Of a stretch of DNA of 64,000 nt, positions 14,165-34,198 are shown piece by piece. Below the pieces are notes generated by a model, which worked only from the letters and a program-made list of their open reading frames with translations, did not search any database and had not been told where the DNA came from. Made by a program: the position numbers and the translations under genes. The stretch lies in NCBI GenBank assembly GCA_947455725.1, contig CANGPL010000001.1, positions 61,545 through 125,544 on the forward strand, written 5' to 3'. The stretch's first letter is position 1. Every line of letters starts with the position of its first letter. The stretch comes from Hyphomicrobiales bacterium (lineage in GTDB: Bacteria; Pseudomonadota; Alphaproteobacteria; Rhizobiales; Beijerinckiaceae).

Positions 14165-16354
14165 ATGTCTGGAATAATTTCAAACCTATCGCTGATCGGT
14201 AGCAATGCCAGCGCATATCTCGCGGCCAATGCGCCCGTCCTGACGACGGCTCAAATTGCAACCTTGAACACGAGCCAGATTTCCGGTTTAACGTCTCAAG
14301 CGGTCTCCGCCCTCAGCACGGCTGAATTGTCTGCGCTTAGCACAAATCTCTCACTCTTAACATCGGGCGCCATAGTATCGATCGCCTCGACCAAACTCGC
14401 GCAACTTTCGTCTGTCCAATTCGGTGGGCTACAGTCCGCTCAGTTAAGCAGCCTGACCTCTGGACAATTAGCGGCGCTCACGACCGCGCATTGGAGCGGG
14501 TTAAGCACGGACCAAATCAACGCCTTTTCACCCGCTCAGATTGCGAAATTAAGCGGTACGCAGTTCGCCGCTCTGACTACGGACCAGATTCACAATCTCA
14601 ATTCTGCTGATATCCCGGCATTATCAACGGCTGAAGTCGGCGCTCTGACGACCAGTCAGGTGATGGCATTTACCGATAGCCAACTCGGCGCGATTACCTC
14701 CTCGCAGGGGGTTGCGATTAAGGCGACGCAGCTTGCGGTGCTCGCTACGCGCCAAGTTTCAAATTTCAGTCCAGCAATCATGCGGGTTTTGAATGCGAGC
14801 CAATCCGTGGGATTAAGCTCGGCGCAATTTAATGCGCTTTCGTCCGATAAGGTTCAGGCGCTTACCTCGGCGGCAGTATCGGGTCTTGCAACGGCGGTGA
14901 TCGCTAACTTAACGAGTGATCAGCTCGCCGGATTAACAATAACCCAAATCGGCGGGCTTACGACGACCCAATTCAGCGGAATTAGTGCGGCCAACCTAGC
15001 AACCTTAAGCACAGCCGATATCGTAGCCCTTTCCTCCGCCCAAGTTGGCGGCCTTTCAACCGCGCAAATGGCGGCTCTTACAACCGCACAATTAAGCGCA
15101 TTGACCACGGCTGAAGTGAAGGCTCTGTCAACCGGCCAACTTGGTGCGATCGGTACGTCAAGGATATCATCGCTAAGTGTCACGGATATGATGGCCATGT
15201 CGACGACGCAGATCACCGGTTTATTAACTGGACAAATCAATGCGCTCTCGTTAGGTCAGTTGAATGTGTTGACGTCGGTTCAAGTGAAGGCGCTTTCGAG
15301 CGGCCAGCTTAATGCCATCGGTACAACGAATCTAAATTTACTTTCGACATCGGTTGTTGCTGCTCTAACCTCAGCGCAAGTAGCAGGAATTACAACATCC
15401 CAAATTGCTAGTTTAACGACAGCCCAAATAGCCGGACTTTCATCGAGCCAATTGGCAGGCTTCACCTCCGCGCAAATTAATATGCTGACGTCTGATAAGG
15501 TTCAGGCGCTGTCGCCATCCGCAATTTCCGGCCTATCGTCATCGCTCATTTCTGGTTTTTCAAGCGGTCAATTGAGCGGCTTAACGACAGCTCAGATCAA
15601 TGGGCTATCAACGGCGCAACTGAGCGCGATCAATAACGCCAATTTTGTGACCCTCTCAACGGCAGATATCGCTTCATTATCAACAACTCAGGTCAAGGGA
15701 CTAACGTCATCGCAGGTTAGTAATCTGACAACCGGCCAGCTTAATGCGCTCAAAATCGCACAGATAGCTGCCCTCACATCGGCGCAAATGGTCGGCTTGA
15801 CGACAATGCAGATTGCGAGGCTTTCCACGGCCCAACTGGGCGCGCTTAGCACGGCAGATGTGAAGGCCTTATCCAGTGGCCAGCTATCGGCGATCGGGTC
15901 GACGAGCATCGCCGTGCTTAGCTCATCGGCCATTGCGGTACTTTCCAGCGCTCAGATACAGGGGCTATCCTCGGGGCAGGTCGTCAATCTCACTTCTGGC
16001 CAATTGAATGCGCTCACAACAACACAGATCCGAGCATTATCGACGTTCCAGCTTGATGCGATCAGCACCGCGAATTTCCAATTGCTCGGTACAGCAGCCG
16101 TTGCAGCTTTAACGTCCGCACAAGTCGCAGGGGTCACCACCCCACAAATGGCAAGTTTAACAACGAGACAAATCGCAGCACTGGCATCTAATCAAGCGTC
16201 CGGCGTTACATCTGCTCAGTTGAACGCGCTCAACACGGATCAGATAAGAGCGCTATCGACGGCACTGCTTGCTAATCTCTCATCAACACAAGTTGCCAGT
16301 CTATCGACCGTCTATTATAGCGCGCTGACATCTTCTCAGATTATTGCCCTATAA
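14165..16354 (+). CDS. Octapeptide-repeat protein 1 (729 aa)
   Basis: After a short N-terminus (MSGIISNLSLIGSNASAYLA), the whole protein is about 88 copies of an eight-residue unit, consensus L-[ST]-[ST]-x-Q-[ILV]-x-[AGN], for example LTTAQIAG and LSTAQLGA. A larger duplication is visible: SDKVQALTSAAVSGL and SDKVQALSPSAISGL lie 648 bases (27 units) apart. There is no signal peptide, membrane segment, RTX motif or cysteine. The regular Leu and Ile/Val positions suggest a solenoid; the S/T-x-x-Q pattern resembles a helix cap, so beta and helical forms are both open. It has a sigma-54-type promoter and stands upstream of two flagellin genes. Function is unknown; a secreted, flagellum-linked structural or adhesive role is inference. 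Confidence 0.85.
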   Translation: MSGIISNLSLIGSNASAYLAANAPVLTTAQIATLNTSQISGLTSQAVSALSTAELSALSTNLSLLTSGAIVSIASTKLAQLSSVQFGGLQSAQLSSLTSGQLAALTTAHWSGLSTDQINAFSPAQIAKLSGTQFAALTTDQIHNLNSADIPALSTAEVGALTTSQVMAFTDSQLGAITSSQGVAIKATQLAVLATRQVSNFSPAIMRVLNASQSVGLSSAQFNALSSDKVQALTSAAVSGLATAVIANLTSDQLAGLTITQIGGLTTTQFSGISAANLATLSTADIVALSSAQVGGLSTAQMAALTTAQLSALTTAEVKALSTGQLGAIGTSRISSLSVTDMMAMSTTQITGLLTGQINALSLGQLNVLTSVQVKALSSGQLNAIGTTNLNLLSTSVVAALTSAQVAGITTSQIASLTTAQIAGLSSSQLAGFTSAQINMLTSDKVQALSPSAISGLSSSLISGFSSGQLSGLTTAQINGLSTAQLSAINNANFVTLSTADIASLSTTQVKGLTSSQVSNLTTGQLNALKIAQIAALTSAQMVGLTTMQIARLSTAQLGALSTADVKALSSGQLSAIGSTSIAVLSSSAIAVLSSAQIQGLSSGQVVNLTSGQLNALTTTQIRALSTFQLDAISTANFQLLGTAAVAALTSAQVAGVTTPQMASLTTRQIAALASNQASGVTSAQLNALNTDQIRALSTALLANLSSTQVASLSTVYYSALTSSQIIAL

Positions 16355-16374
16355 CTGCGAGAAAAACTCTGGCT

Positions 16375-17418: not shown

Positions 17419-17561
17419 TATTTAAGGTCCTTATGGAAATATTCCCGGCAAATACCGCCAGAGGCCGCTAAGTTAAGGATCGTTTATCTTAAAAAACCAA
17501 GTAAAATCAATAACTTTATTGGCTTTCTCTGTTTCTCAAACAAATCTCTAAAATCTCGCAT

Positions 17562-17588
17562 TAAAGAAAATCCGGGAGCGACCGTTAT
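17562..17588 (+). promoter_or_regulatory. TAAA-N15-CCGT motif (sigma-28-like) upstream of flagellin 1
   Basis: TAAA at 17562-17565, 15 bases, then ACCGTTAT. It resembles the flagellar sigma-28 pattern TAAA-N15-GCCGATAA with 5 of 8 matches in the -10. No sigma-54 site is visible before this gene. The same layout recurs before repeat genes 2 and 3. Confidence 0.45.
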
Positions 17589-17682: not shown

Positions 17683-18537
17683 ATGTCCGTTATTAATACA
17701 AACGTGGCCTCCCTGCGGACGCAGGCAGCCATGGGCCAGAATACGAAAGCCCTCCAAGGTGTTATGGAGCAGCTTTCGACCGGTAAACGCATCAACTCCG
17801 CCGCTGACGATGCGGCGGGATTAGCAATATCGACCCGCCTTACCTCGCAGATCAACGGTCTTAATCAGGCTGTTCGTAATGCGAATGACGGTATCTCGAT
17901 GTTGAAGACCACCGAAGGCGCAACGGATACGGTAACCAACATGCTTCAGCGCATGCGGGAATTAGCGATCCAAGGCGCAAACGGGACCAATTCATCGGCT
18001 GATATTGCTTCGATGAATACCGAGTATCAGCAGCTTTATTCTGAAATGAAACGCATTGCCAACACGACCGCTTGGAACAATATGAATGTTCTCGACGGTA
18101 CGTTCAGCGGCGGCGTGAGCTTCATGGTCAGCGAAGTGGCCGGGGCCAACTCGAAGATTTCTGCCTCGATCGCTAGCTTCGACCCAACCGCAGGCGCCAC
18201 AAACGCCTTGGTTGAAGGTTTCTCCCAGATGAGCGGCTCTGCAATCTCCGCAGGTGCGACCGCAACAGATCTACTTAATAAGATTTCGGTTGCCATCAGC
18301 GGCGTCAACAAAGTGCGCTCGACTTTGGGTGCCACCATCAACCGGTTGCAATTCACAGTTGATAATCTGACGAACGTATCGACTAATTTGTCCGCTTCGC
18401 GCAGTCAGATTGAAGACGTTGATTACTCGCAGGCAACCGCCGAGTTGGCCAAGCGCCAGGTTATTCAGCAAGCAGCAACGGCGATGTTGGCGCAGGCCAA
18501 TCAGCAGCCACAGTCGGTGTTGTCGCTTCTGAAGTAA
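17683..18537 (+). CDS. Flagellin 1
   Basis: 284 residues. N-terminal D0/D1 domain reads MSVINTNVASL, with [20 protein letters not shown] at about 32-51; the C-terminal D1/D0 domain ends QANQQPQSVLSLLK. The variable middle is very short, as in many alphaproteobacterial flagellins. It is secreted by the flagellar export apparatus and polymerises into the filament. GGAG precedes the ATG and a strong terminator follows. It is closely similar to flagellins 2 and 3 in this window. Ser/Thr residues in the middle domain are possible glycosylation sites. Confidence 0.95.
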   Translation: MSVINTNVASLRTQAAMGQNTKALQGVMEQLSTGKRINSAADDAAGLAISTRLTSQINGLNQAVRNANDGISMLKTTEGATDTVTNMLQRMRELAIQGANGTNSSADIASMNTEYQQLYSEMKRIANTTAWNNMNVLDGTFSGGVSFMVSEVAGANSKISASIASFDPTAGATNALVEGFSQMSGSAISAGATATDLLNKISVAISGVNKVRSTLGATINRLQFTVDNLTNVSTNLSASRSQIEDVDYSQATAELAKRQVIQQAATAMLAQANQQPQSVLSLLK

Positions 18538-18671: not shown

Positions 18672-18696
18672 TTTGCTGTTTGTGATGGAGTGGGGA

Positions 18697-19551
18697 ATGA
18701 CAGTTATCGGAACCAATGTCGCGGCGCTCAAGGCCGAGATGGCTTTAACCAAGAATAGTCGCGATCTTCAATCCGCGATGGAAAAGCTTTCGACGGGGAA
18801 GCGCATCAATGCCGCGTCCGATGATGCAGCCGGCATTGCAGAAATTGCCAGAATGTCGACCGAGATCAGTGGTATCGGACAGGCAATTAAAAACGCCAAC
18901 GATGGTATTTCCATTCTTAAGACATCTGATTCCGCCACCGGCTCAATCACTAACATGTTGCAGCGGATGCGCGAATTAGCGATTCAGGCCGCGAACGGGA
19001 CAAATGCGTCGTCCGATATTCAATCGCTAAATACGGAATACCAGCAACTTTATTCAGAAATTAAGCGAGTTGCTTCCACGACGGAATGGAACAGCTCCAA
19101 ATTGCTTGATGGCACGTTCAGCGCAGGCGTTTCGCTTTTTGTCGGCTACTCGTCCAATGCGGACGGAAAGATTTCCGCTTCTATTCCAAGTTTTGATCCG
19201 ACTGCCGGGGCGACTAATTCGCTGGTCGATGGATTTTCTGCCATCAGCGGCTCCACCATTTCTGCCGGAAGCAACGCAACGGACCTTCTTGCAAAGATCT
19301 CCCTTGCCATCAGTGGCGTTAATAAAGTCCGTTCAACACTTGGCGCTACGGTTAATCGCTTGCAATTTACCGTCGATAATCTAACCAATATGAGCACGAG
19401 TATTTCCGCATCCCGAAGCCAAATTCAGGACGTAGACTATTCTCAAGCGACCGCCGAACTGGCTCGTGGCCAAATTCTCCAACAAGCGGCTACGGCTATG
19501 CTGGCGCAGGCCAATCAGCAACCTCAATTGGTTCTCGCACTCTTGAAATAG
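18697..19551 (+). CDS. Flagellin 2
   Basis: 284 residues from MTVIGTNVAAL. The frame opens at 18673, but the ATG at 18697 follows GGAGTGGGGA and aligns with the start of the other flagellins. It has the same architecture: [20 protein letters not shown] near residues 32-51 and C-terminal QANQQPQLVLALLK. It differs from flagellins 1 and 3 at several otherwise shared positions, such as AEIARMSTEISGIGQAIKNA where the others have a [16 protein letters not shown] type sequence, so it is the most divergent of the three. No clear promoter was found in its 160-base leader; a small hairpin lies there. Confidence 0.94.
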   Translation: MTVIGTNVAALKAEMALTKNSRDLQSAMEKLSTGKRINAASDDAAGIAEIARMSTEISGIGQAIKNANDGISILKTSDSATGSITNMLQRMRELAIQAANGTNASSDIQSLNTEYQQLYSEIKRVASTTEWNSSKLLDGTFSAGVSLFVGYSSNADGKISASIPSFDPTAGATNSLVDGFSAISGSTISAGSNATDLLAKISLAISGVNKVRSTLGATVNRLQFTVDNLTNMSTSISASRSQIQDVDYSQATAELARGQILQQAATAMLAQANQQPQLVLALLK

Positions 19552-19591: not shown

Positions 19592-19640
19592 AATACCGGC
19601 CTGAGGTGTGGTCAATAAAGGCCCGGGTGAGGTCATTATC

Positions 19641-21467
19641 ATGGTAACGAGTGTTAGTAATAGCAGCAGTGTTCCAACGACAACTGCGTCGACGGCTAGC
19701 ACAACCATGTCGTCTCCGACCTCATCCAACTCAACGACTTCCAAGACGGCGACGATTGGCAGCAGCATCATCAATAGCCTTACCGGCGCGACGATTAATA
19801 TTCAAAATTTAGCCCAGCAGCTGACAGATGCCACCAAAGCTGGGCGTCAATCGATCATCGATTCCCGTAAAGCGTTGGCAGACGCCAAAATATCAGCGAT
19901 CGGACAAATTACTTCAGCGGCAAATACGTTTCAAACATCGCTGACCGGATTAGGTAGCAGTAAAGCGATCTCATATACGACCCAGAGCTCTGATCCAACG
20001 GTGGCGGATTTTTCGTTTAAATCCTTCATTCAGCCAAAGCCCTTGAACTTCACCTTTTCCGTTAAGCAGCTTGCGACCGAAAATATCGTTACTTTACCCC
20101 CGATTTCGGCGTCGGCCACAAATTTGCTCGGGTCCAGCACGAGCCGCCTTCTAACCCTTTTTGCAGCGCCACCTATTGCAAGCGCTCCAGTCGCGTCAGG
20201 ATCAAATCCAACAAATCTTGCAATTCCCGCAGGCAGTCTCACGCCGGGAAGCACAATGAATTTGTCTCTACCGACTACTGGTGGAGCAAGTCAAAACGTG
20301 CAAGTTAACGTTCCCGCGTCGGGTGATCTCAACGATTTTATTGCTAGCATCAACACATCGATTGCCAGAACAGGGAGCGCAGCGCCAATTGCCTCGCTTG
20401 GACAAGATGGCGCATCCGTTTCCTTTTCTTATAACGGCTCACCACAGCCTACCGGCTCAATCAGTCTATCGACAAGCATCAAGCAATTTGATCTCTCGGG
20501 CTATAAAAAACTAAGCGATCTCGCCAATGACATCACGGCCGTATCCGGTTTTAGCGCGAATGTTATGAACGCGCCTTCGGGCGGCGATACATTACAATAT
20601 CTGCAAATCAGCCATGGCACCGGTGTCGCGAATAATTTTAACGTGGCGATCACAGATCCGAATGATTCCCAGCCTTTAACCACGGGGCTTAGCACGGATC
20701 AGGGATCCGGCCCCATCATTCAAACGGGCCAAGATGCAATCATTAATGCCGCCGGCATTGATTATACGTCTTCAACGAACTCATTCTCGAATTTAATTAC
20801 GGGCGTGACGATTAATGTGCACGCTCCAACAACTGGCTCAAGCCAAGTTAATTTATCGACCTCCATCAATACATCTGGTCTCTTAAATGCGATGCAAACC
20901 ATCGTTTCGGGCTATAATAACCTTCTAACGACGGTTCAGAGTTCCATCAAATATGATGCCGATGCCGCAAAAAGAGGTGGGTTAGCGAATGATTGGGTCG
21001 CACAATCCTTTCTTTCGCAATTGCGACAATTGACCACAACATCCATCGCCGGGTCAGGCACGACACCCGTAACTTTGGCCGATATTGGCGTGAAGACGAA
21101 CCTCGATGGATCGTTAAGCATCGACACCGCCATGGTTGACCGCGTCAGCCAAAATAACCCGCAATTGTTGGCCGATGTCATAGCGTCCACCAACACGTCG
21201 ACTGGTGCGATCGATCTTATGACAAACCTGAATAAAGTTATCACCAGCCCAGCTGCACCAATTCAGGTGGAATTGACGCAGGTTCAGGGCAAGGATGAGC
21301 AGGCGATTGCCGATGATCAGACGAAGTTGGATACGGAAATGGCCGCTCTTCAACAGCGTTATCTCACGCAATTTACGGCTATGCAGGCAATTCTTGATTC
21401 AACAAAGAATGATCAATCCGGCCTGACGAACATGATGTCGTCTTGGTCGGCCGGCCTTAAAGCATAA
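19641..21467 (+). CDS. fliD: Flagellar hook-associated protein 2 (filament cap)
   Basis: 608 residues from the ATG at 19641, which follows GAGG; the frame extends to 19608 without support. FliD caps the growing filament and guides flagellin folding. The N-terminus is a Ser/Thr-rich low-complexity tail (about 1-35), then the FliD N-terminal domain (IINSLTGATINIQNLAQQL and helices to about 100). The C-terminal domain is typical: MQTIVSGYNNLLTTVQSSI, then YLTQFTAMQAILDSTKNDQ and a Leu/Trp-containing end. It is close behind flagellin 2 and has its own sigma-54-type promoter. Confidence 0.9.
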   Translation: MVTSVSNSSSVPTTTASTASTTMSSPTSSNSTTSKTATIGSSIINSLTGATINIQNLAQQLTDATKAGRQSIIDSRKALADAKISAIGQITSAANTFQTSLTGLGSSKAISYTTQSSDPTVADFSFKSFIQPKPLNFTFSVKQLATENIVTLPPISASATNLLGSSTSRLLTLFAAPPIASAPVASGSNPTNLAIPAGSLTPGSTMNLSLPTTGGASQNVQVNVPASGDLNDFIASINTSIARTGSAAPIASLGQDGASVSFSYNGSPQPTGSISLSTSIKQFDLSGYKKLSDLANDITAVSGFSANVMNAPSGGDTLQYLQISHGTGVANNFNVAITDPNDSQPLTTGLSTDQGSGPIIQTGQDAIINAAGIDYTSSTNSFSNLITGVTINVHAPTTGSSQVNLSTSINTSGLLNAMQTIVSGYNNLLTTVQSSIKYDADAAKRGGLANDWVAQSFLSQLRQLTTTSIAGSGTTPVTLADIGVKTNLDGSLSIDTAMVDRVSQNNPQLLADVIASTNTSTGAIDLMTNLNKVITSPAAPIQVELTQVQGKDEQAIADDQTKLDTEMAALQQRYLTQFTAMQAILDSTKNDQSGLTNMMSSWSAGLKA

Positions 21468-22064: not shown

Positions 22065-25000
22065 ATGAGCTTAATCCCAATTTCCTTTGGGTCGGTTAAC
22101 GTGACATCCGTTGCGCAATTAACGACTCGGCAGATCGCAACGCTGAATTCGACTCAAGTGCAGTCGATGAGTACAACGGAAGTTTCGACGCTTAGTGCGA
22201 CACAGATTGATGCGCTTCCTGTTTCGCAACTAACGACCGATCAGATCCAATCACTTACAAATCTCGAAGTATCAGAGCTGACAACAAGTCAGGTTCAGTC
22301 ACTATCGACGGATCAATTTGCTAGCCTGTCATCCGCCCAACTGGGCGCCATGCAGGTTGCGCAGTTGAAAAGTATTACAACCGATCAAATGCAGGTCATT
22401 CCGGCCGCTTCAATCACCCGCGCTGAAATTGCGGCTTTTTCAACGGCGCAGATTAGTGCCTTAACGACCACTCAGGTTGCCGGTCTGAATTTTACCCAGT
22501 TGCAGGCGATGTCTGGCGCACAATTGGCGAGCCTTTCAACCGATCGTGTGAATGTCATTACGACAACCGCCCTAGTGACGTTGACCGATACGCAGCTACA
22601 TGCGTTAAAATCCAACCAGATTTCGGGGCTTAATAACGATCAGATTGATGCCCTATTCAATTCGAACAAGTTTTCCGTAACGATCAGCCAGATGCCCGGA
22701 CTCACCTCGGATCAGGTCGGGCATCTCTCGACCGACGAAGTGAGAAAGCTCACCGCAGGCCAATTGGTCTGGATGGTTACGAGCCAAACGAGCCTGTTCT
22801 CGTCAACTCAAGTGGCCGCTCTCACACCGACGCAGATGAACTTCATTTCAGCCGATAAATTTGCTAATTTTGCAACTGATCGTATCGCGGTTCTGTCTAC
22901 CAACCAGATCCATGCCTTATCTGGTATTCAGCTGGCAGGATTCGGATCCGATAATCTAAATTCGCTTTCGACCGATGACCTTGAATCATTAACGGCTGCA
23001 CAACTTGCCGGACTTACAACTAATCAAGTTCAAAATTTAACGACAGATAATTTTAAGGTTCTATCAGGTCGGGCACTAACTGGTCTGACGTCTGCCCAAA
23101 TGAACGCGTTAACAACGGCCGAATTGCACGCGCTTACGGCCACGCAATTGCGTTCGTTCTCCGGGCAGCAGCTTGCGGCAACTGGCAGTAATTTGGTTGA
23201 TAGTGAATCCGTTCTGGAAACATCTTCCGTTCAACTGCTTACGCCACAACAAATTAGCGGAATGACGACAGCACAGATTGTGGGTCTCTCGACGGCGCAA
23301 TTCTCTGCCTTGTCGGCGTCCGCGATGACCGGATTCACGCAGAGCCAGCTTACAAATCTATCAACTGACGAAGTGTCAAGCTTTACCACGGTACAGGTCG
23401 CAGCTTTAACGCCCACACAATTAGGCGCACTCGATCCAACGAAAATTTCAACGCTCGGAACTGCAAATCTCAATATTCTTTCGAATGATCAAATCAAGGG
23501 TCTAACAATCGCTCAATTTGCGGCATTTACGACGGATCAAATCAACGCGTTCAATACAACAAAATTCTCGAGTGTATCACGTGGCCAGCTACAAGCAATT
23601 GCCGCCGCTGATTTTAATAGTATTCAAACTGATAAAATTAATGCGCTCTCGGCCGCTCAGGTAGGTGGCTTAACCACCGCTCAGATTAATTCACTATCGG
23701 GCACCAATTTTGCAGCCATTTCAGCAGCAGGTGTTGTCGGCCTAACGACATCCTTGATGAACGCCATGACATCGGCAGAGACGTCAGCGTTAACGTCTGT
23801 GCAGTTGAAAAATCTGACGGCAACACAGCTAAGCGCACTGAATACCAAGAGTTTAAATGGTCTGACGACCACCTTGATAAGCACGCTGGCCGCAACTCAG
23901 ATATCAGGTCTTACGACATTCCAGGTCAATATGCTGACGACAGTCAATGTGGCCGCGATATCCGGTGGCGCGATTACGGGTTTGAAGACCAACCAAATTG
24001 CTGCGTTAACGACCGCACAGCTTCAAGCCTTTTCGACGACCCAGCTCCGCGCTTTCTCGGGTAGCCAATTCGCAGCGGCCGATGGTAGCTTAACGGCCAC
24101 GAACGTCATTGCGACATCAAGTGCGGCTTCATTGACGCCGTCGCAGCTCGCAGGACTAACGACAGATCAGGTTTCCAGCCTTACAACGGGCCAATTCGCT
24201 TCGCTGACAATCTCGGCGGTTAAGGGTTTAACCCAATCGCAATTGGCGAAAGTCACTTCAGATCAGGTAGCTGCTTTGACAAGCGGCCAGCTAAAGTCAC
24301 TTTCAGCAACCCAGCTCGGCGCTCTGGATGCCGCCGTCTTCGGTAAGATCAGCACCGGCAACATCAGCCTCCTTTCTGTTGATCAGATCAAAGGCCTGAC
24401 AAGTGCCCAGATCCATGCGCTTTCAACGGCTCAGCTCAATGCTTTTGATACGTCGCGCTTCGTGGCATTGTCGAAGGCTCAGCTTGATGCCATTGCGGCT
24501 GCCGATTTTAACAATATTACAACGGCAAAGTTACGTACCCTTACCGCCGATCAAGTCAGCTATCTTTCGTCTGATCAAATTAGTCAGCTCTCATCGGATA
24601 GTTTCCGCGCGTTAAAGGGTTCTAGCCTTGTAAGCCTCACGTCAGCCCAGATGTCGGCTTTAACAACGCTTGAGACATCTGCATTGACGACCGAACAGGT
24701 TCGTTCGATTAACGGAAGTCAATTGGGTGGAATTAGCACCGACAGCTTAAACGCAATCTCGACAGCATTGTTGAACTCGCTCGCGCCTTCTCAATTGGCC
24801 GGCCTCACAACTACGCAAATTAACAATCTTAAAACGGCCAATTTTGCAGCACTCTCGGGTACGGCTGTAACGGGTCTCACGACGGTGCAATTGGCGGCAA
24901 CCTCAGCTGGTGAGATAAGTGCTTTAACGTCAATACAAATGCGCTCCTTGTCGGCCAAGCAGCTCGGTGCTTTAGGATCAGCCAATATTGCTTCGCTCAA

Positions 25001-25946
25001 CACCTTGGCAATTAAAATATTGTCAGCAGCACAAGTAGCTGGATTTACAACGGATCAGATTAAAGGATTGACATCGACACAGTTCGCAAGTCTTACGGCG
25101 CAAGGCGCGTCAGGACTTACGACCAAGCAAATGGCAGCCTTAACCTCTGATCAGGTAGCCAGTCTAACGACTGATCAAATAAAGTCCATGCGTGGTGCGC
25201 AATTCGGTCAAATTGCCACGGCGAATTTAAGCTCACTTAGTACAACCAATATTCGCGCTTTGTCGGCCGCCCAGATCAATGGCTTCACGACAACCCAGCT
25301 CAGTAGTTTATCCACGACACAGTTTGTGGCATTGACGAGCGCCGCGGTTTCCGGATTGTCCACCAGCCAGATTTCGGCACTTACGACACGTGAAGTTAAT
25401 TCGTTATTGACAGCTCAGGTTGGCGCATTAACAGGTACGCAGATTAGGTCCTTTACATCGGATCAGCTGGCCAAATTAACAACGACAAATATGGCAGCAC
25501 TTTCTGCGCTGCAGGTTCAGGGCTTTACCACAGATCAGATTAAATTGCTGTCAACACAACAGTTTACGTCTCTTTCAACTAGCGGTATGGCTGCTTTGTC
25601 AACTAACCAGATCGCAAATCTGACCACTGGTGAGTTGTCGCAGCTCTCAACCACGCAGGTACGCCTCTTCTCCGCTAACCAGTTGGCAGCAATTAATGCC
25701 GCCGATATCACCCAATTGGGTGCAGCTGGCATTAGTGCACTTACTGTTGGGCAAGTAAGAGGCATAACGGTCGATCAAATTGGCCAAATGACCACAGATC
25801 AGGTGACGACCTTGAGCGCCGGTCAATTGAAGACCTTAACGATTAGCCAGGTTGGTGGTTTTACCCCCGCTCAGGTGAATACGTTGACGACCCAACAGTT
25901 GAGTTATCTCACGGATGCACAGAAGGCTGCTTTGACGATCGTTTAA
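22065..25946 (+). CDS. Octapeptide-repeat protein 2 (1293 aa)
   Basis: After MSLIPISFGSVNVTS, the protein is about 155 octapeptide units of the L-[ST]-[ST]-x-Q-[ILV]-x-[AGN] type. The repeat is broken briefly at about residue 370 (ATGSNLVDSESVLETSS) and again at the matching place in a second copy (AADGSLTATNVIATSSAAS); the two blocks are about 897 bases apart, showing an internal duplication. The C-terminus leaves the pattern as LTDAQKAALTIV. No signal peptide, membrane segment or cysteine. A strong ribosome site (AGGGGGC) precedes the ATG and a good terminator follows. Function unknown; its setting between fliD and flagellin 3 suggests a flagellum-related extracellular role. Confidence 0.85.
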   Translation: MSLIPISFGSVNVTSVAQLTTRQIATLNSTQVQSMSTTEVSTLSATQIDALPVSQLTTDQIQSLTNLEVSELTTSQVQSLSTDQFASLSSAQLGAMQVAQLKSITTDQMQVIPAASITRAEIAAFSTAQISALTTTQVAGLNFTQLQAMSGAQLASLSTDRVNVITTTALVTLTDTQLHALKSNQISGLNNDQIDALFNSNKFSVTISQMPGLTSDQVGHLSTDEVRKLTAGQLVWMVTSQTSLFSSTQVAALTPTQMNFISADKFANFATDRIAVLSTNQIHALSGIQLAGFGSDNLNSLSTDDLESLTAAQLAGLTTNQVQNLTTDNFKVLSGRALTGLTSAQMNALTTAELHALTATQLRSFSGQQLAATGSNLVDSESVLETSSVQLLTPQQISGMTTAQIVGLSTAQFSALSASAMTGFTQSQLTNLSTDEVSSFTTVQVAALTPTQLGALDPTKISTLGTANLNILSNDQIKGLTIAQFAAFTTDQINAFNTTKFSSVSRGQLQAIAAADFNSIQTDKINALSAAQVGGLTTAQINSLSGTNFAAISAAGVVGLTTSLMNAMTSAETSALTSVQLKNLTATQLSALNTKSLNGLTTTLISTLAATQISGLTTFQVNMLTTVNVAAISGGAITGLKTNQIAALTTAQLQAFSTTQLRAFSGSQFAAADGSLTATNVIATSSAASLTPSQLAGLTTDQVSSLTTGQFASLTISAVKGLTQSQLAKVTSDQVAALTSGQLKSLSATQLGALDAAVFGKISTGNISLLSVDQIKGLTSAQIHALSTAQLNAFDTSRFVALSKAQLDAIAAADFNNITTAKLRTLTADQVSYLSSDQISQLSSDSFRALKGSSLVSLTSAQMSALTTLETSALTTEQVRSINGSQLGGISTDSLNAISTALLNSLAPSQLAGLTTTQINNLKTANFAALSGTAVTGLTTVQLAATSAGEISALTSIQMRSLSAKQLGALGSANIASLNTLAIKILSAAQVAGFTTDQIKGLTSTQFASLTAQGASGLTTKQMAALTSDQVASLTTDQIKSMRGAQFGQIATANLSSLSTTNIRALSAAQINGFTTTQLSSLSTTQFVALTSAAVSGLSTSQISALTTREVNSLLTAQVGALTGTQIRSFTSDQLAKLTTTNMAALSALQVQGFTTDQIKLLSTQQFTSLSTSGMAALSTNQIANLTTGELSQLSTTQVRLFSANQLAAINAADITQLGAAGISALTVGQVRGITVDQIGQMTTDQVTTLSAGQLKTLTISQVGGFTPAQVNTLTTQQLSYLTDAQKAALTIV
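23061..24854 (+). repeat. Tandem duplication, two units of about 897 bp, inside repeat gene 2
   Basis: Marker segments align between the two units: LSGRALTGL (23061) with ISGGAITGL (23958), FSGQQLAA (23157) with FSGSQFAA (24054), and ETSALTS (23778) with ETSALTT (24672). Spacing is 894-897 bases, so one codon differs. The copies are diverged at the DNA level, so the duplication is not recent. Confidence 0.7.
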
Positions 25947-25966: not shown

Positions 25967-26001
25967 AGGCCGTTATCGATTGGCTCGATAGCGGCCTTTT
26001 T
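25967..26001 (+). terminator. Strong terminator after octapeptide-repeat gene 2
   Basis: AGGCCGTTATCGA (25967-25979) pairs with TCGATAGCGGCCT (25985-25997) with one G-U pair, a 5-base loop and a TTTTT run. A classic rho-independent terminator. Confidence 0.9.
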
Positions 26002-26218: not shown

Positions 26219-29200
26219 ATGAGTTTAACTCTGTCTGGATTGGCCGGCTATACCCCAGTGGGCCCTTATACGCCTTCTAACATTTCACAATTATCGTCAG
26301 CTACATTTGCGACGCTGACCTCAACAGATATCGCGACAATTGGCACCGAGCAGATCCAATTTCTGCAGCCTAGTCAGATCGCCTATCTCGACTCAGTTCA
26401 AATTCAGGGCATAACAACGGCACAGGCGCCTAATCTATCGCCTGCCGATATCGCTCAATTAAGCAGTGATCAGATAAACAATATTAGCACTGATGTTATC
26501 GGTTCACTGACTGCAGTTCAGGTTCAATCTTTGACGACCGGGCAATTGTCGGCAATGACAACGGCCGCTATTGCGGCTCTGACCTCAGTACAGCTTGACG
26601 CGATGAATGCAACGCAGCTTCAAAGCATTGCAACGAATAATATGTCAGCGCTTTCAACTAATGCGCTTCCAACCCTAAATCAGGATCAACTTCAGGCATT
26701 CACAACGGATCAGGTCGATGGTCTTTCGACTGACCAATTGAGCGCACTTGTTGCTTCGGCAAATTTTAATATTTCTGTTACCCAATTGAACGCTCTGACG
26801 ACGGATAGTCTGCAGGCTCTTGGTAGCCCGGGTGCAGCGCTTCTATCGCCAACGCAGATTGCTGGATTAACCACTGCCAATTTGAATGCGCTAACGTCTG
26901 ACCAAGCCGCCGCGTTGAATACTCGCCAGGTCGCGTCATTAACCACTGAACAAATACAGAATATTGCGACAAGCGTTCTCGATAATATTTCTACGGCAGC
27001 CATCCCGGTTTTATCAGCGTCGCAGGTTGCTGCGTTTACATCTGATACGGTTCCGACCTTAACAAGTGCCCAGTTTGCAGTCATAACAGCCGAAGAGATT
27101 TCGAATTTAACAACCAGCGCCCTGTCTGGATTGGCGCAGGGCCATATCGCCAATTTGTTACCCAGCCAATTGGCAGGATTAACATCTGACCAAATCTCAT
27201 CGTTGCGTACCGATCAAATTCTGGCATTGGGCTCCACGGCTATCAGTAACTTGACAGCTCGGCAGACGGCGGGTCTGACATCAGTGCAGGTACCCGTTTT
27301 AGCGGCGCTTCAAATTGCCTCTTTCAAGCCATCGCAGATCCAGTCTTTCAGCTCGAGTGTCATTCAAAGTCTTACACAGTCGCAGGTGTCGGCTATTACG
27401 TCTGACCAGTTGAATAGCTTTTTGACCACGCAGCTTTCTGCCTTTACAACAGACCAAGTTGCCGGTCTAACGCCGGCTACTTTTGGTAGCATTATACCAT
27501 CCCAATTGGCGAAATTCTCGTCAAGCCAAGTCAATGCGCTCACCTATAACGAGATGCAGCAGTTGAATTCTGCGCAAGCTGCAGCGCTGACCTCGACACA
27601 ACTTGCAAATATTAGCAGCGTTCAGTTACGAGCTTTGACGTCTGCAGCGTTTTCTGGTTTCACTGCAACGCAGCTCTCAAGGCTCGCATCGAGCCAGTTT
27701 GCCGTCCTCACCGACGGTGAGTTCAGCGTACTGACTTCAGCGCAATTATCGGGTATTTCAACGAGTGACCTTTCTCAAATTTCAGGCACTCAGATTGGGT
27801 TGATCGCGACGAGCGTGATTTCTGCTCTATCGACGGGTCAAGCCGCAGCTTTGAGCTCAGACCAGACCGCCCGATTCACAAATGATCAAGTGTTAGCTCT
27901 AAATTCAAAGCAAATTAGCGCGCTTACTACTAGTGTCACGGGATCGCTTACAAATGCTGTGATTCAAGCGCTTACAAGTGACCAAGTGAAGGGTTTAACT
28001 TCGGCGCAGATGAATGCCTTGTCCCAATCCGATTTTCGTTTTGCGGCATTGAACACCGACCAGCTCGGGGCATTGTCCACATATGCTGTGTCTGGCGTTC
28101 AGAATTCGGCACTTGGAGCTATTACAACAGCACAGTTTAATGCATTAACGACGTCTTCTGTTAGTATCCTTTCCTCTGCTCAATTGGGCGCACTGTCCGC
28201 CGATCAGGCCAAGGGAATTGCGACGTCCGAGATTGCCGCGATTTCAACGGGTGCAATTAATGGACTTTCTGTTTCGGCTATCGGAGCATTGGATACGACG
28301 CAAGCTGCAACTCTGACGTCAAGCCAATTTAATGCCTTGTCGACGGATCAGATTCAGGGTCTTACCTCGACTGAAATTAGCGCATTAACCAATACAGTCG
28401 TATCAAGTCTGACAACCAAACAAATTAATGCCCTGACGGCCGATAATGTAGCTGGCCTTTCGACGACGCAGGTCGCTCAACTTTCGGCCACTAAGATTTC
28501 CGCTCTCACAACCTCTGCCGTTAGCGGTTTGACAACGTCACAGGTTGCTGCGTTGTCTTCATTGCAAGTGAATGCGCTCTCAACGAGCGTATTTGCAAGC
28601 TTCACTTCTACCGAAATCAACAGCCTAACAACGACGGTCATCGCTAATCTATCGTCCACGCAAGTCGCTACGCTTTCGTCCGATCAGGCGTCGGGTCTTT
28701 CGACAGGCCAGATCTCGGTATTATCCGCCGTTAATACTTCTAAACTGACAACCGCAGTTGTGGGCAGCTTGACATCGGATCAGGTTGGCACGCTGTCGTC
28801 GAGCCAGGTTAACAGCCTCAATTCTGCCCAGATGAACAGTCTGACATCCACTGAATTGACGGGTCTGCAGACAACTGCCATTGCGAATTTGACAACAGAT
28901 CGGGTGAAATTACTAACATCCGCTCAAGTTGCCGGTTTGGGTGCAAGCCAAATTGGATCCTTTACGCCAGGCCTGAACGTTTCGGCCTTGCAGACTTCGG
29001 TTGTCGCTAATTTGACGTCTACCCAGCTTGGCGGTTTGACTTCCAGCGAAGTCAACGCACTTAATTCGGTACAAGTCGCCAGCTTGACGTCGGTCGAAAT
29101 TTCGAGCCTTTCGACGACTGTTGTTAAGAACCTTTCCGGCAACCAGTTGAAGCTGCTAACATCGGTTCAGGCCGGCGGTCTTCAGACTTCACAGATTGCG

Positions 29201-32200
29201 GCATTGGCGACATCGACATTGTCGTTAATTACAACGGCTACGTTCAATAGTCTTTCGACGCTCCAAGTAGCGGCATTGGGTTCCGACCAGGTCAATGCGT
29301 TGACAACGACGCAGGCTAATAGCTTGATGTCGGATCAATTGAACGCTCTTTCTTCGACTGATATCAAAAATCTGTCATTGAAGAATATAGCCGCGCTCAC
29401 TACAACGGCCGTTAATGCACTCACTACGACTCTAAGTGCTATTTTGACATCCGGTCAGGTCAATGCATTGACCTCTGCCGAGGTCAACAGCCTTACGTCG
29501 GACCAGCTTGCAAGCTTCTCGACGGCGGTGGTCAATAATCTCAGCGCCACTCAGCTGAAATTGCTTACCTCTGCGCAGGCCGTAGGACTCCAGTCATCCC
29601 AAGTGGCTGCGTTGGCGACATCGACGATCGGTTCGATAACTACGACGGTTCTGAGTAATCTAGAGACGCTCCAAATCGCGGCATTGAACTCCGATCAGGT
29701 CAATGCATTGACGACGACACAGGCAAATAGCCTAACGTCCGATCAGGTCAACGCCCTTTCGACGACCGATATTAAGAACATGTCGGTTAAAAATATTGCT
29801 GCCATGACGACAACAGCTATTAAGGCGCTTACGACAAATCTCAGCGCTGTTCTGACGTCAACGCAGGTTAACGCCCTAACTTCGGATGAGGTTAACGGCT
29901 TGACGTCCGATCAAATCTCCAGCCTCTCAACTACAGTTGTCAATAATCTCAGCGCCACCCAGCTGAAATTGCTCACCTCGGAGCAGGCAGCAGGCCTCCA
30001 GTCCTCTCAGGTGGCGGCCTTAGCAACATCGACCATTGGTTCGATGACCACGACGACTCTGAGCAATCTCGCGACGCTCCAAGTCGCAGCATTGAACTCC
30101 GATCAGGTCAATGCGTTTACGACTGCACAGGCAAATAGTTTGACGTCGGATCAGGTCAATGCGCTCTCAACGACGGACGTTAAGAACATGTCTGTCAAAA
30201 ATATCGCAGCCCTGACGACAACAGCAATAAACGCTCTAGCGGCGAATTTGAGTGCCGTTCTGACATCGGCTCAAGTGAATGCTCTCACATCAGACGAAGT
30301 GAACAGCTTGACCTCGGATGAAGTGTCGAGCCTTTCGACAACGGTTGTTAATAACATCGGTGCGAACCAGCTGAAACTGCTGACCTCGGCACAAGCCGCT
30401 GGCCTTCAGTCTTCTCAAGTTGCTGCATTGGCGACATCAACCATCTTGTCGATGACGACTTCGGCGCTGAGCAGCCTTACGACACAACAGGTTGGTGCGT
30501 TGAATTCCAGCCAGCTTAATTTTTTAACAACGACGCAGGCGAATAGTCTTACGTCGGATCAAGTGAACGCGCTTTCGACAACCAGCCTCAAGAATTTGTC
30601 GCTCAAGAATATAGCAGCCCTAACGACGACGGCACTGAAGGCATTGACGACAAATCTGAGCGGAGTATTGACATCTGGGCAGGTAAACGCCCTGACATCC
30701 ACGCAGGTGAATAGCCTAACCTCCGATCAGGTGGCGAGCCTTTCAACCACCGCCGTCAATAATTTGTCGATTGCTCAACTTAAGCTTCTGAACTCAGTTC
30801 AAGCAGCCGGCTTACAGGCAAGTCAAATAACGGCCTTGTCGACGGCGACACTCTCTGCATTGACAACAGCGGTAACAACGAGCCTGACGACAGCTCAAGC
30901 GGATGCACTTACGTCAGATCAAATCAATGCGATGACGACGGCTCAGATCAATAGTCTGACTTCGGACGAGGTTAACACGCTATCGAGCATTGAAATCAAT
31001 AAGCTCTCATTGACTAATGTAGCGGCACTTACGACTACGGCGCTTCATGCACTCACCACAAATCTTTCGGCGGCACTGACGTCGGATCAGGTGAATGCGC
31101 TGACGTCCAAGGAAGTTCAGAGCCTAACCTCTGACGAGATTGCCAGCCTGTCGACAACGGTCGTTAACAATATGTCGGCCGATCAGCTTAAACTCTTGAG
31201 TTCGGTTCAGGTCGCCGGCTTACAGACGTCCCAAATTGCGGCGCTGTCGACATTGACGATTTCATCGTTGACAACTTCTGCCTTGAGCAATCTGACGACA
31301 ACGCAAGTTGCCACCTTTATGTCGGATCAGGTGAATGCCCTCTCGACGGCACAGATAAACAGCCTGACATCCGATGAGGTAAACGCGCTGAGTACGAACG
31401 ACATCAACAAACTGTCGTTGGCGAATGTGGCGGCTCTATCCACCACGGCGCTCCAGGCCTTGACGACTAATCTTTCCGCCGTCTTGACGTCGGCGCAAGT
31501 CAATGGACTGACTTCGAAGGAAGTGCAGAGCCTTACCTCTGACCAGCTTACGAGTCTTTCTACGACCGTCGTAAACAATTTGATGGCTGCGAAGCTAAAG
31601 CTCTTGAACTCGGTACAGGTGGCTGGTTTGCAGCCTGCGCAAATCACGGCTTTGTCGACATCGACCATTACGGCAATCACAACCGCGGCCTTGAGCAGCC
31701 TGTCCACGGGGCAAGTCGCCGCCTTCACGTCGGATCAAGTTAATGCTTTGACATCGGCTCAGGCTAAAAGCTTGACTTCGGATGAAGTGAATGCATTGAC
31801 AACCACCGCTTTGAGCAAATTGTCGACGACCAATATTGCTTACTTAACAACGACAGCCGTTAATGCCCTGTCGACCAGCCTGGCTGCTGTCCTGACGTCT
31901 GGACAGGTGAATGCACTCACCTCGGCAGAGGTGAAGGGGCTGACATCGGCACAGCTTAACGCGCTTACGACAACGGTGATTAATAATCTGACGACAACTC
32001 AGGTTGGATTGTTGACCTCGGTGCAAACCGCTGGGCTTAAAACCTCCCAGATCGTCGCTCTATCAACGGCCGATGTCGCTGCTTTGCAAACGAGTGTGAT
32101 CAGCAATCTGCTTACCTCGCAATTGGCATCCTTGACCTCTGTGCAGTCCGCTGCATTGACAACAAGCCAGATCATGGCGCTCACCTCGGATGAAATTAGC

Positions 32201-34198
32201 GTGATGGCGGCGACTTCGGTTGGCAATCTCTCCTCCGCTCAGCTCGGTGTATTGACATCGGTACAGGTGGCGGGCCTTCGGACAGATCAGATTGCTTCGC
32301 TTAAGACATCGAGCATTACCTCGCTGACGACGGATGCAATCGACGCCTTCACAACGGATCAGATCCACGCTTTGCAATCGAACCAGGCAATGCTGCTGAC
32401 CACGATTCAGATTAACTCGTTAAACTCTGATCAGGTGGCAGCACTGACGGCCTTATCGACGCAAACTATTTCGGCGCTGACCTCGCCCAATGTCTCGGCT
32501 CTGGCGTCGAGCGATCTTGCTGCTCTGGCTCCAAATCAGGTCGCGGCCTTTACAGCAGGTCAAATCTCGGCGCTGGCTTCTGATGCATTGATAGGTCTCC
32601 AGACCTCTGGATTAGCACAGTTAAATTCGACACAGATCGGTGCTTTAACCTCTGCCCAAGTTGGTGGGTTAACCAGCGCACAGCTTGCGGCGTTTACCGC
32701 ATCGAATGTGAAAGCGTTAACGACCAATGCGTTGAGCAGCTTCTCGACGACAACGATAGCGGGGTTAACCTCTGATCAAATAGCTACTTTGACGACAAGC
32801 CAAACCGCCGCATTAACTTCGGACGAAGTGGGCGCATTAACCACCTCGGCTATGGCCAATCTCAGCGCCAATCAGTTACGTGCTCTGGGATCCACCGTAA
32901 CGGGAATTAGTACTGCCCAGAGCAGTACGATGTTGGCCAGTCAAATCTCGGCCCTTACGTCATTGCAACTGACACAGATTTCGACATCCGCCATCACTGC
33001 TTTGACAACCACGGTTGTGAAGTCCTTGACCGCAGACCAGATCAAGAATCTGCTCACCAGTCAGATGGCTGCAATGACAACGGATCAGATCCGCGCCTTT
33101 ACATCCGGCCAGATATCTTCCTTCTCGACGGCAGATATCAGGGGTATGACTACGGATCAGGTTCAGGCCTTTACAAGTGTCCAAATTAACATGATGTCGA
33201 TTGCGCAATTGCAGGCGATGCGGACAGATGAGCTTGCGGCCTTGACGACCAGTAATTTGACCGTCATTTCACCCGGACGAATTGCCGGTCTCACGACCAC
33301 GGCACTTCAAGCCCTGACTACAACTCAAGTGGCAAGCTTTACGGGTAGCCAAATCTCGGCCCTTACAACAGCTCAGTCACGTACTTTGACGTCATCGCAA
33401 ATTGCAGTGATCTCATCGGCTCAATTGTCCTACATGAGCACGAAAGCGGTAGCGGCTTTGGATGCCACAAATCTTGCTTCATTAACGTCGTTGGCCGTCA
33501 AAGGATTGACAGCAACTCAGGTCAAGGCCTTGTCGACAAGCCAGCTGACAAGCCTATCGAATGACGCTCTTGGACAGATCTCGAGCGATCAGATCAGTGG
33601 ATTGACGACGGCTATGGTCAGGGCGCTCTCAGTAAGCCAGCTCCAGGTGATTGGAACATCAGCGATTAGCACGCTGTCGAAATCCCAGCTCCTGGCGCTA
33701 ACAACGACGCAGGCGGCGGCACTTTCAACCGGACAAATCAAGGCTTTGACGGCAACGCAGATTGGCTTCATTACGACGAGCGATATTCAAGCTCTGACGG
33801 TGGATCAGCTGGCAGCGCTGAATACAAAGCAACTAAATGCGATGCTTCCGTCGCAGCTTGGAGCATTACTGGGAAGTCAGATTGGATCAATGTCGATCGA
33901 CGCTCTGAATTCGCTGAGCGATACGGCTGTGGCCAAATTGTCGGCGAATCAGATCCAGGGCATGACAGTCGAACAGGCTTCCGGTTTGTCCAAGAGGTTC
34001 GTGACTGCGCTACTACCGAAGCAAATCAAGTCTCTCTTGCCGACACAGATTGCGGCTATGAGCGCAACCAATATCGCTTCGCTCCAGTTGACAACGCTGA
34101 AGCTCTTTACCGCCGATCAAGCTAAGGCTTTGAATAACGCTCAATTGGCGGCCCTTTCGTCGAACCAGGCGGCTCTGATCAAAGCGCTAATTGGTTGA
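26219..34198 (+). CDS. Giant octapeptide-repeat protein 3 (2659 aa)
   Basis: About 325 units of the same octapeptide as proteins 1 and 2, after MSLTLSGLAGYTPVGPYTP. The centre (29156-32011) is seven exact-length 136-residue super-repeats. The last 150 residues drift from consensus (LLPKQIKSLLPTQIAAMSAT) and end AALIKALIG. No signal peptide, transmembrane segment, calcium-binding nonapeptide or cysteine is visible. AGGAGG with ideal spacing precedes the ATG, so translation should be strong. It lies between repeat gene 2 and flagellin 3 with a TAAA-N15-GCCGT promoter candidate. If solenoidal, it would be tens of nanometres long or more. Export could be by the flagellar apparatus or a type I system; neither is shown by the sequence. 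Function unknown. Confidence 0.87.
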   Translation: MSLTLSGLAGYTPVGPYTPSNISQLSSATFATLTSTDIATIGTEQIQFLQPSQIAYLDSVQIQGITTAQAPNLSPADIAQLSSDQINNISTDVIGSLTAVQVQSLTTGQLSAMTTAAIAALTSVQLDAMNATQLQSIATNNMSALSTNALPTLNQDQLQAFTTDQVDGLSTDQLSALVASANFNISVTQLNALTTDSLQALGSPGAALLSPTQIAGLTTANLNALTSDQAAALNTRQVASLTTEQIQNIATSVLDNISTAAIPVLSASQVAAFTSDTVPTLTSAQFAVITAEEISNLTTSALSGLAQGHIANLLPSQLAGLTSDQISSLRTDQILALGSTAISNLTARQTAGLTSVQVPVLAALQIASFKPSQIQSFSSSVIQSLTQSQVSAITSDQLNSFLTTQLSAFTTDQVAGLTPATFGSIIPSQLAKFSSSQVNALTYNEMQQLNSAQAAALTSTQLANISSVQLRALTSAAFSGFTATQLSRLASSQFAVLTDGEFSVLTSAQLSGISTSDLSQISGTQIGLIATSVISALSTGQAAALSSDQTARFTNDQVLALNSKQISALTTSVTGSLTNAVIQALTSDQVKGLTSAQMNALSQSDFRFAALNTDQLGALSTYAVSGVQNSALGAITTAQFNALTTSSVSILSSAQLGALSADQAKGIATSEIAAISTGAINGLSVSAIGALDTTQAATLTSSQFNALSTDQIQGLTSTEISALTNTVVSSLTTKQINALTADNVAGLSTTQVAQLSATKISALTTSAVSGLTTSQVAALSSLQVNALSTSVFASFTSTEINSLTTTVIANLSSTQVATLSSDQASGLSTGQISVLSAVNTSKLTTAVVGSLTSDQVGTLSSSQVNSLNSAQMNSLTSTELTGLQTTAIANLTTDRVKLLTSAQVAGLGASQIGSFTPGLNVSALQTSVVANLTSTQLGGLTSSEVNALNSVQVASLTSVEISSLSTTVVKNLSGNQLKLLTSVQAGGLQTSQIAALATSTLSLITTATFNSLSTLQVAALGSDQVNALTTTQANSLMSDQLNALSSTDIKNLSLKNIAALTTTAVNALTTTLSAILTSGQVNALTSAEVNSLTSDQLASFSTAVVNNLSATQLKLLTSAQAVGLQSSQVAALATSTIGSITTTVLSNLETLQIAALNSDQVNALTTTQANSLTSDQVNALSTTDIKNMSVKNIAAMTTTAIKALTTNLSAVLTSTQVNALTSDEVNGLTSDQISSLSTTVVNNLSATQLKLLTSEQAAGLQSSQVAALATSTIGSMTTTTLSNLATLQVAALNSDQVNAFTTAQANSLTSDQVNALSTTDVKNMSVKNIAALTTTAINALAANLSAVLTSAQVNALTSDEVNSLTSDEVSSLSTTVVNNIGANQLKLLTSAQAAGLQSSQVAALATSTILSMTTSALSSLTTQQVGALNSSQLNFLTTTQANSLTSDQVNALSTTSLKNLSLKNIAALTTTALKALTTNLSGVLTSGQVNALTSTQVNSLTSDQVASLSTTAVNNLSIAQLKLLNSVQAAGLQASQITALSTATLSALTTAVTTSLTTAQADALTSDQINAMTTAQINSLTSDEVNTLSSIEINKLSLTNVAALTTTALHALTTNLSAALTSDQVNALTSKEVQSLTSDEIASLSTTVVNNMSADQLKLLSSVQVAGLQTSQIAALSTLTISSLTTSALSNLTTTQVATFMSDQVNALSTAQINSLTSDEVNALSTNDINKLSLANVAALSTTALQALTTNLSAVLTSAQVNGLTSKEVQSLTSDQLTSLSTTVVNNLMAAKLKLLNSVQVAGLQPAQITALSTSTITAITTAALSSLSTGQVAAFTSDQVNALTSAQAKSLTSDEVNALTTTALSKLSTTNIAYLTTTAVNALSTSLAAVLTSGQVNALTSAEVKGLTSAQLNALTTTVINNLTTTQVGLLTSVQTAGLKTSQIVALSTADVAALQTSVISNLLTSQLASLTSVQSAALTTSQIMALTSDEISVMAATSVGNLSSAQLGVLTSVQVAGLRTDQIASLKTSSITSLTTDAIDAFTTDQIHALQSNQAMLLTTIQINSLNSDQVAALTALSTQTISALTSPNVSALASSDLAALAPNQVAAFTAGQISALASDALIGLQTSGLAQLNSTQIGALTSAQVGGLTSAQLAAFTASNVKALTTNALSSFSTTTIAGLTSDQIATLTTSQTAALTSDEVGALTTSAMANLSANQLRALGSTVTGISTAQSSTMLASQISALTSLQLTQISTSAITALTTTVVKSLTADQIKNLLTSQMAAMTTDQIRAFTSGQISSFSTADIRGMTTDQVQAFTSVQINMMSIAQLQAMRTDELAALTTSNLTVISPGRIAGLTTTALQALTTTQVASFTGSQISALTTAQSRTLTSSQIAVISSAQLSYMSTKAVAALDATNLASLTSLAVKGLTATQVKALSTSQLTSLSNDALGQISSDQISGLTTAMVRALSVSQLQVIGTSAISTLSKSQLLALTTTQAAALSTGQIKALTATQIGFITTSDIQALTVDQLAALNTKQLNAMLPSQLGALLGSQIGSMSIDALNSLSDTAVAKLSANQIQGMTVEQASGLSKRFVTALLPKQIKSLLPTQIAAMSATNIASLQLTTLKLFTADQAKALNNAQLAALSSNQAALIKALIG
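29156..32011 (+). repeat. Seven tandem units of exactly 408 bp (17 octapeptides) in repeat gene 3
   Basis: The conserved LTSDQVNALS/T marker recurs with its Leu codon at 29324, 29732, 30140, 30548, 30956, 31364 and 31772, each 408 bases apart, and KLLTSxQ recurs at the edges (29156, 29564 ... 32012). No indel separates the units. Synonymous codons vary widely between units, so the length is kept while the DNA has diverged. A shortened relative (243 bases) precedes the array. Confidence 0.88.

Follow-up and report, generated by a model that had tools for sequence, protein, structure and literature searches.

The analysed window is a 64,000-nucleotide stretch of a Hyphomicrobiales bacterium of the family Beijerinckiaceae (assembly GCA_947455725.1, contig CANGPL010000001.1, positions 61,545 to 125,544). 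It contains three giant genes for proteins of the ALTTAQ octapeptide-repeat family among flagellar genes, and a gene for a putative O-glycosyltransferase of the GT41 family. The ALTTAQ family is genetically coupled to GT41 clades. It is likely that the three repeat proteins are O-glycosylated, exported solenoids, partly co-regulated with the flagellum. The glycosyltransferase link is an addition to an initial annotation of this DNA, which had considered the repeat proteins as braces, coats or tethers of the flagellar filament or as adhesins.

The three repeat genes are as follows.
14165..16354, + strand: ALTTAQ-repeat protein 1 (P0001), 729 aa, 89 octapeptides
22065..25946, + strand: ALTTAQ-repeat protein 2 (P0002), 1293 aa, 157 octapeptides
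26219..34198, + strand: ALTTAQ-repeat protein 3 (P0003), 2659 aa, 329 octapeptides, with a higher-order period of 17 repeats

These open reading frames of 729, 1293 and 2659 aa were confirmed at the positions first given for them; the coding length, estimated at about 14 kb, is 14,052 nt, all on the + strand. The proteins had been described as built almost wholly of L-[ST]-[ST]-x-Q-[ILV]-x-[AGN]. The near-total octapeptide build holds, with a coverage of 97.7, 97.1 and 99.0% for proteins 1, 2 and 3 in a tiling parse fitted to the octapeptide pattern, but the strict motif does not, as it occurs in only 28, 12 and 36 copies. The commonest residues by repeat position are L-[TS]-[TS]-x-Q-[ILV]-x-[AGS]. 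A fixed loose motif, [LIFM][STN][STAPG]xQ[ILVMF], served as a control; it was counted 44, 74 and 105 times in the three proteins, whereas 500 shuffles of each gave means of 0.7, 1.3 and 2.5. Distances between leucines show peaks at 8 and 16. The self-identity of protein 3 is highest at a lag of 17 repeats (0.39), followed by 34, and its gene includes a 408-bp DNA repeat (29531-30456) corresponding to 17 octapeptides. The octapeptide repeat is real, conserved and not due to chance.

Proteins 1, 2 and 3 contain no cysteine. On the Kyte-Doolittle scale, the highest mean of any 19-residue window is 1.62, 1.42 and 1.44 in the three proteins; within their first 40 residues it is 1.06, 1.20 and 0.58. 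By this simple hydropathy scan, which is not a trained predictor, none of the three has a clear membrane segment or signal peptide. All three absences had been noted in the initial annotation.

The proposed partner of the repeats is encoded on the opposite strand.
41019..43151, - strand: TPR + GT41 (OGT/SPINDLY-type) O-glycosyltransferase, PF13844 at 254.6 bits plus TPR

Judged from its sequence, the product is a member of GT41. It has the Glyco_transf_41 and TPR domains and matches XcOGT (2jlb) at E 2.3e-72. Its H369 and K538 align with H218 and K388 of XcOGT, which we take to be residues with functional roles.

On plasmids, 58 records have an ALTTAQ match. Among these, 26 loci were read, chosen to span genera and including two near-duplicate pairs; at one of them, in Polaromonas, the open reading frame criterion gave no ALTTAQ gene. 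With a profile built from 11 sequences, the window enzyme among them, GT41 was called within 10 kb of ALTTAQ in 15 of the 26 loci and within 0.9 kb in 13. All ten of the plasmid neighbours tested with Pfam are PF13844 proteins (201-278 bits), and nine also match TPR models. A GT41 query against 72,556 plasmid records gave 85 matches, of which 60 are listed. GT41 matches occur in at least 27 of the 58 ALTTAQ records, compared with 58 or fewer of the remaining 72,498; UR115, which is among the 27, has the two genes at a large distance from each other. Among the listed GT41 records, those from Rhizobium (8/8), Cereibacter (11/11) and Pseudomonas (2/2) are all ALTTAQ records.

The same association was observed on chromosomes. 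In a panel of 41 genomes, which includes the window's own, 10 have an ALTTAQ match at E <= 1e-10, and 7 of these belong to the genus of the window. GT41 is present in 10/10 ALTTAQ-bearing genomes versus 10/31 others (Fisher 1.6e-4, uncorrected for kinship). The ten genomes together have only 26 GT41 genes in about 31 Mb. The distance between GT41 and ALTTAQ is nevertheless 51-637 bp in the panel genomes G010, G015, G020 (two sites) and G034, and 2.3 kb in G001.

The GT41 tree (50 rows) shows two clades drawn from ALTTAQ-bearing sources. All 11 rows of clade A are ALTTAQ-adjacent. Clade B also has 11 rows, including the window enzyme, and 9 are ALTTAQ-adjacent; the other two come from the ALTTAQ-bearing genomes G007 and G009, on flagellar contigs with no ALTTAQ gene seen nearby. 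Clade B further includes the Rhodovastum enzyme and enzymes from Pseudomonas, Cereibacter, Pseudoroseomonas and Niveispirillum loci linked to type I secretion systems, at which no flagellar gene was found with the blast panel. The 10 GT41 rows from genomes without ALTTAQ matches, G023 and G024 included, are all outside clades A and B. Thus, the enzyme tracks the repeats better than it tracks flagellin. ALTTAQ loci of Niveispirillum (L087) and Pseudoroseomonas (L082) each have two adjacent GT41 genes, one per clade.

The Pfam model PF20080 (ALTTAQ_rpt) matches proteins 1, 2 and 3 along their length at 392, 493 and 895 bits, far above the curated cut-off of 26.4 bits, in 23, 35 and 76 stretches. 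Pfam names the repeat without describing its function. The repeat is not new in itself, although it is still a family without an assigned function. In the literature searched, no paper turned up for the names ALTTAQ and HeliScrew, nor, among those listed, for the string LTTAQI. As far as the searches tell, the family is known but uncharacterised, its biology is new, and so is the coupling of ALTTAQ to GT41, sigma54 and flagellar loci. A protein search yielded 405 relatives at E <= 1e-3 among 7990 candidates scored, and many of the 120 listed relatives carry a calpain domain (PF00648) or PF26745. Proteins 1-3 have no match to PF00669 (Flagellin_N) up to E 0.1, and the same model did find the flagellins of the window genome. 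They have no match to the RTX model PF00353 up to E 0.1 either. At E <= 1e-6 the repeat has no match among phage records. Weak ALTTAQ-like matches (H97 and H98, 23-24% identity) are present on Spiroplasma and Staphylococcus plasmids.

The initial annotation had proposed a structure prediction of 10-20 repeats. AlphaFold2, applied to 24 repeats of protein 1, predicts a solenoid-type screw with confidence (predicted local distance difference test 95.3, predicted template modelling score 0.86). The alignment consisted of 46 other in-phase stretches of proteins 1-3, some overlapping (47 of 72 listed were used). The model has 24 helices of 4-6 residues, one per octapeptide. A whole-protein model without alignment is poor, yet along most of the chain its helices are spaced in the same way. 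Proteins 1-3 are thus predicted to be long helical screws with one helix per octapeptide. Judged by the repeat pattern, the core would be lined by Leu-1 and Ile/Val-6, each helix would be N-capped by the Ser/Thr-2 and -3 ahead of it, and Gln-5 would lie in the first turn. Leucine-rich repeat identity was rejected, as the model is all helices, one per 8 residues, with no strand-containing units of 20-30 residues; LRR_EndoS matches in the repeat proteins coincide with the octapeptides. In fold searches, known folds resemble the model weakly, and those of Mesothelin and the phage CDHS-1 receptor-binding protein are named among the closest known systems. The best PDB sequence match (E 4e-12 and 1e-12) is 9zem, a 120-aa chain which its depositor named HeliScrew4. 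It has the same repeat as the window proteins but is short. It is not among the best 50 rows of each fold search.

Protein 1 and a paralogue outside the window are under strong purifying selection. Protein 1 has an orthologue at the same place in G006, 72% identical over 358 aa; the ratio of nonsynonymous to synonymous substitution rates (dN/dS) is 0.08, with dS near saturation. The paralogue is a fourth ALTTAQ protein of the window genome, 3458 aa long, on contig C13 (G000:C13:42055-52431, L019/L020). In G006 and G007 its orthologues are 3458 and 3459 aa long, with 79-83% identity and a dN/dS near 0.06; dS is close to saturation. The near-equal length, the high identity and the low dN/dS indicate constraint on the number of repeats as well as on their sequence. 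The three orthologues share Gln-5 in 92.5% of 429 repeats. Serine or threonine stays serine or threonine in 88% of 305 cases at position 2 and 93% of 249 at position 3. The retention is 58-65% at positions 4, 7 and 8, 52% of 27 at position 5, and 80% of 15 at position 6. In three species (L019/L020, L061, L062, L098), the gene for the 3458-aa protein has katG and an oxyR-like LysR gene as neighbours. On a plasmid of Roseateles XES5, an ALTTAQ gene likewise adjoins katG-oxyR.

The repeat genes of the window lie within the following flagellar neighbourhood.
8514..11626, + strand: motA and two motB-like genes, a set that is also next to an ALTTAQ gene in G001 and G006
12410-13885, - strand: crescentin rod-domain protein (PF19220 at 184 bits, cut-off 100), kept in G001 and G006
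17683..18537, + strand: flagellin fliC1
18673..19551, + strand: flagellin fliC2
19608..21467, + strand: fliD (filament cap), identified by sequence and position; in G001 and G009 its relatives likewise come after flagellins
34498..35376, + strand: flagellin fliC3

As originally reported, the repeat genes share their strand with the three flagellin genes and fliD: protein 1 is upstream of fliC1, and proteins 2 and 3 lie between fliD and fliC3. The crescentin-rod gene sits between motAB and the first repeat gene, divergent from the latter. The two motB-like genes stand in tandem after motA (9381-11626), an arrangement that G001 and G006 share.

An ALTTAQ gene is in a flagellar locus in five of the seven ALTTAQ-bearing genomes of the genus (the window genome, G001, G006, G009 and G010). 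The gene order is flagellins-fliD-GT41-ALTTAQ-crescentin-like-motB-motB-motA in G001 and fliD-ALTTAQ-GT41 in G010. It is motA-motB-motB-crescentin-like-ALTTAQ in G006, where the contig then ends and holds no flagellins. In G009, ALTTAQ adjoins three flagellins and fliD at a contig end. The flagellar contig of G007 stops just short of the ALTTAQ place, and the ALTTAQ piece of G002 is on a contig other than the flagellar one. Outside the genus, G015 has two ALTTAQ genes, the nearer one 10.4 kb from fliD, while the ALTTAQ genes of G020 and G034 are far from flagellins. Three of the 26 plasmid loci likewise have flagellar genes near ALTTAQ. Pseudorhizobium flavum has flagellins and FlgE there, Rhodovastum has flhA/fliQ/fliE/flgC/fliI, and Rhizobium 11515TR has one FlgE match. 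The flagellar position is thus conserved within the genus, is seen again in other lineages, and is no accident of one genome. Flagellin-bearing relatives without a detected ALTTAQ gene exist among the draft assemblies (e.g., G003 and G023), so ALTTAQ is probably dispensable for a flagellum. Between fliD and ALTTAQ, G010 has an 859-aa open reading frame (L059:2014-4593) with its own sigma54-like site.

Eight sigma54-like sites in the window score at or above the threshold of 14.
14076..14091, + strand: -24/-12 element TGGCCCAAAATTTGCT, preceding the protein 1 start by 89 nt
19576: element before fliD
34461: element TGGCACGAAAGTTGCT before fliC3
49673: element before the LicD-like gene
61089, - strand: element overlapping the called flgF start; it would precede a likely internal start
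6989, 7318 and 23699 (the last inside protein 2): other sites

The G006 orthologue of protein 1 has the element TGGCCTGAATTTTGCT at -92, and G007 has a corresponding site upstream of flgF. Across 24 loci of the genus, a site within 300 nt upstream was found for 8/14 ALTTAQ, 7/50 flagellar and 5/149 other genes; many of the 50 flagellar genes lie inside operons, and the LicD-like gene accounts for two of the five other-gene sites. The threshold was reached in 16/4200 shuffles. When the ALTTAQ sites are collapsed to independent loci, the count is 5/11 (Fisher 1.2e-4). The C13-type ALTTAQ gene, away from flagellar genes, retains the element in three species. rpoN is present in 9/9 genomes. Late flagellar genes of Caulobacter use sigma54. 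PMC3096577 is consistent with such use.

We tentatively favour, at somewhat less than even odds, the reading that these are GT41-glycosylated screws, probably exported with flagellins to become sugar-coated rods on or near the flagellum. The TPR-GT41 enzyme would add sugar to the repeats in the cytoplasm, with the TPR as a binding arm. The acceptor would be the conserved Ser/Thr pair before each helix, in up to hundreds of copies. A deoxysugar from the neighbouring rfb genes might be involved, which is a guess. The decorated screws would then be exported, by the flagellar system at the window locus and by type I secretion elsewhere. The flagellar route is preferred here because the blast panel found no type I secretion gene in the window, the genes lie among those for export substrates, and the first of them shares its promoter type with fliC3 and fliD. 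The sigma54-like site would place the first repeat gene in the late flagellar regulon. A filament component is a possible role. A more specific version, a new class of flagellum-associated component in which giant sigma54-controlled, O-glycosylated screws bearing up to hundreds of sugars at even spacing are exported with flagellin as a sheath or tether of the filament, which would be the first natural repeat scaffold with a dedicated bacterial OGT, appears rather unlikely.

Several observations weigh against the favoured reading or the original interpretation. Most relatives examined are away from flagellar loci, as the plasmid survey and the 3458-aa protein beside the oxyR-like gene and katG illustrate. 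A majority of homologues away from flagellar loci had been named as a refutation; by that criterion the family is not generally flagellar, and the original interpretation is supported in part. The non-repeat N-termini are short, as had been described. They vary from member to member, yet Rhizobiaceae proteins linked to flagellar genes do not differ in them from unlinked ones; consequently a dedicated flagellar export signal, to which they had been likened, is not favoured. No sigma54-like site over the threshold was found within 300 nt upstream of proteins 2 and 3, and two of the three window flagellins lack one. The conservation of Ser/Thr at positions 2 and 3 could be explained by helix N-capping alone. 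The GT41 gene of the window is 6.8 kb from the repeat genes, on the opposite strand. In the stretches read, GT41 was not found at 11 of the 26 plasmid loci, near the 3458-aa type locus (three genomes) or near G015:C3. The ALTTAQ-adjacent GT41 rows of G001 and G020 site 1 fall in a mixed tree group.

The proteins may instead be adhesins of a general kind, acting at the cell surface or in biofilms, that leave the cell through a type I secretion system encoded at another place in the genome; the flagellar island would supply the needed glycan genes, and there would be no physical tie to the flagellum. This is a quite possible though doubtful alternative. Six of the 26 plasmid loci have a full type I secretion system (HlyD + ABC) next to them, and GT41 is present at all six. 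The window genome has five HlyD genes over the curated cut-off, with type I secretion genes outside the window; an ALTTAQ piece at a contig end (G000:C11:1-7148, L110) is a few kb from an ABC/HlyD pair. The C-terminal tail of Pseudomonas ALTTAQ members presumably resembles those of RTX/type I secretion substrates, which is also counted for this alternative. The blast panel, however, found no HlyD or ABC gene of such a system in the window, the sigma54-like promoter type is common to protein 1, fliC3 and fliD, and the flagellar position recurs in other lineages. A further idea is that the proteins are intracellular solenoid scaffolds, never exported, such as a polar scaffold beside the crescentin-like protein. 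The zero cysteine count, the lack of a clear signal peptide and the divergent crescentin-rod neighbour kept in G001 and G006 are in line with it, but it is very improbable, given the type I linkage of relatives and the homologues in which the repeat is fused to RTX (PF00353) domains or to domains of the secreted-protease type.

The enzyme could also serve flagellin, as GT41 genes are near flagellins in G023 and G024, which have no ALTTAQ match; the repeat proteins would then be unmodified neighbours or enzyme sponges. Caulobacter FlmG, a cytoplasmic TPR + glycosyltransferase protein acting on flagellar export substrates according to PMC7591256, provides a precedent; it differs from the proposed pair in that it acts on flagellins rather than on repeat solenoids. 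The G023 and G024 enzymes are outside the clade of the window enzyme, which holds ALTTAQ-adjacent enzymes at loci where no flagellar gene was found, and we regard this alternative as improbable.

The glycosylated-screw reading also has a likeness in HMW1/HMW1C and other giant adhesins, where a large surface protein is linked to a GT41-family enzyme. HMW1 itself is a two-partner adhesin with a beta-helical fold and carries its modification on asparagine, whereas the window proteins are predicted helical screws with Ser/Thr ladders. To our knowledge, bacterial OGT-like (GT41) enzymes are mostly without a known substrate. A repeat family travelling with two GT41 clades offers a concrete candidate enzyme-substrate pair, for example on plasmid pA of the laboratory strain Cereibacter sphaeroides 2.4.1. 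Should the repeats prove to be the acceptor, the screw of octapeptides would be a natural ladder displaying sugars at fixed spacing. An uncharacterised Pfam repeat would thereby gain a function, and it would be seen how such giants can be connected with type I secretion in one case and with flagellar genes in another.

The remaining features of the window are listed below.
25967..25997, + strand: terminator-like hairpin between proteins 2 and 3, 13 pairs with a T-rich tail
43180..46574, - strand: rfbA, rfbD, rfbB, rfbC (dTDP-rhamnose-type sugar genes), named from sequence, adjoining GT41
47999..49621, - strand: LicD-like gene, with which the glycan gene run begins, matched at 20.3 bits against a cut-off of 22.6

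Terminator-like sites are in no excess over the whole region (20 versus a shuffle mean of 21.3). The rfb gene order is the same in G007 and G009. A large flgK gene (1348 aa) and a flgE-like gene (over 900 aa) are located at 53016-57062 and 61234-63945; we take their size to be unusual.
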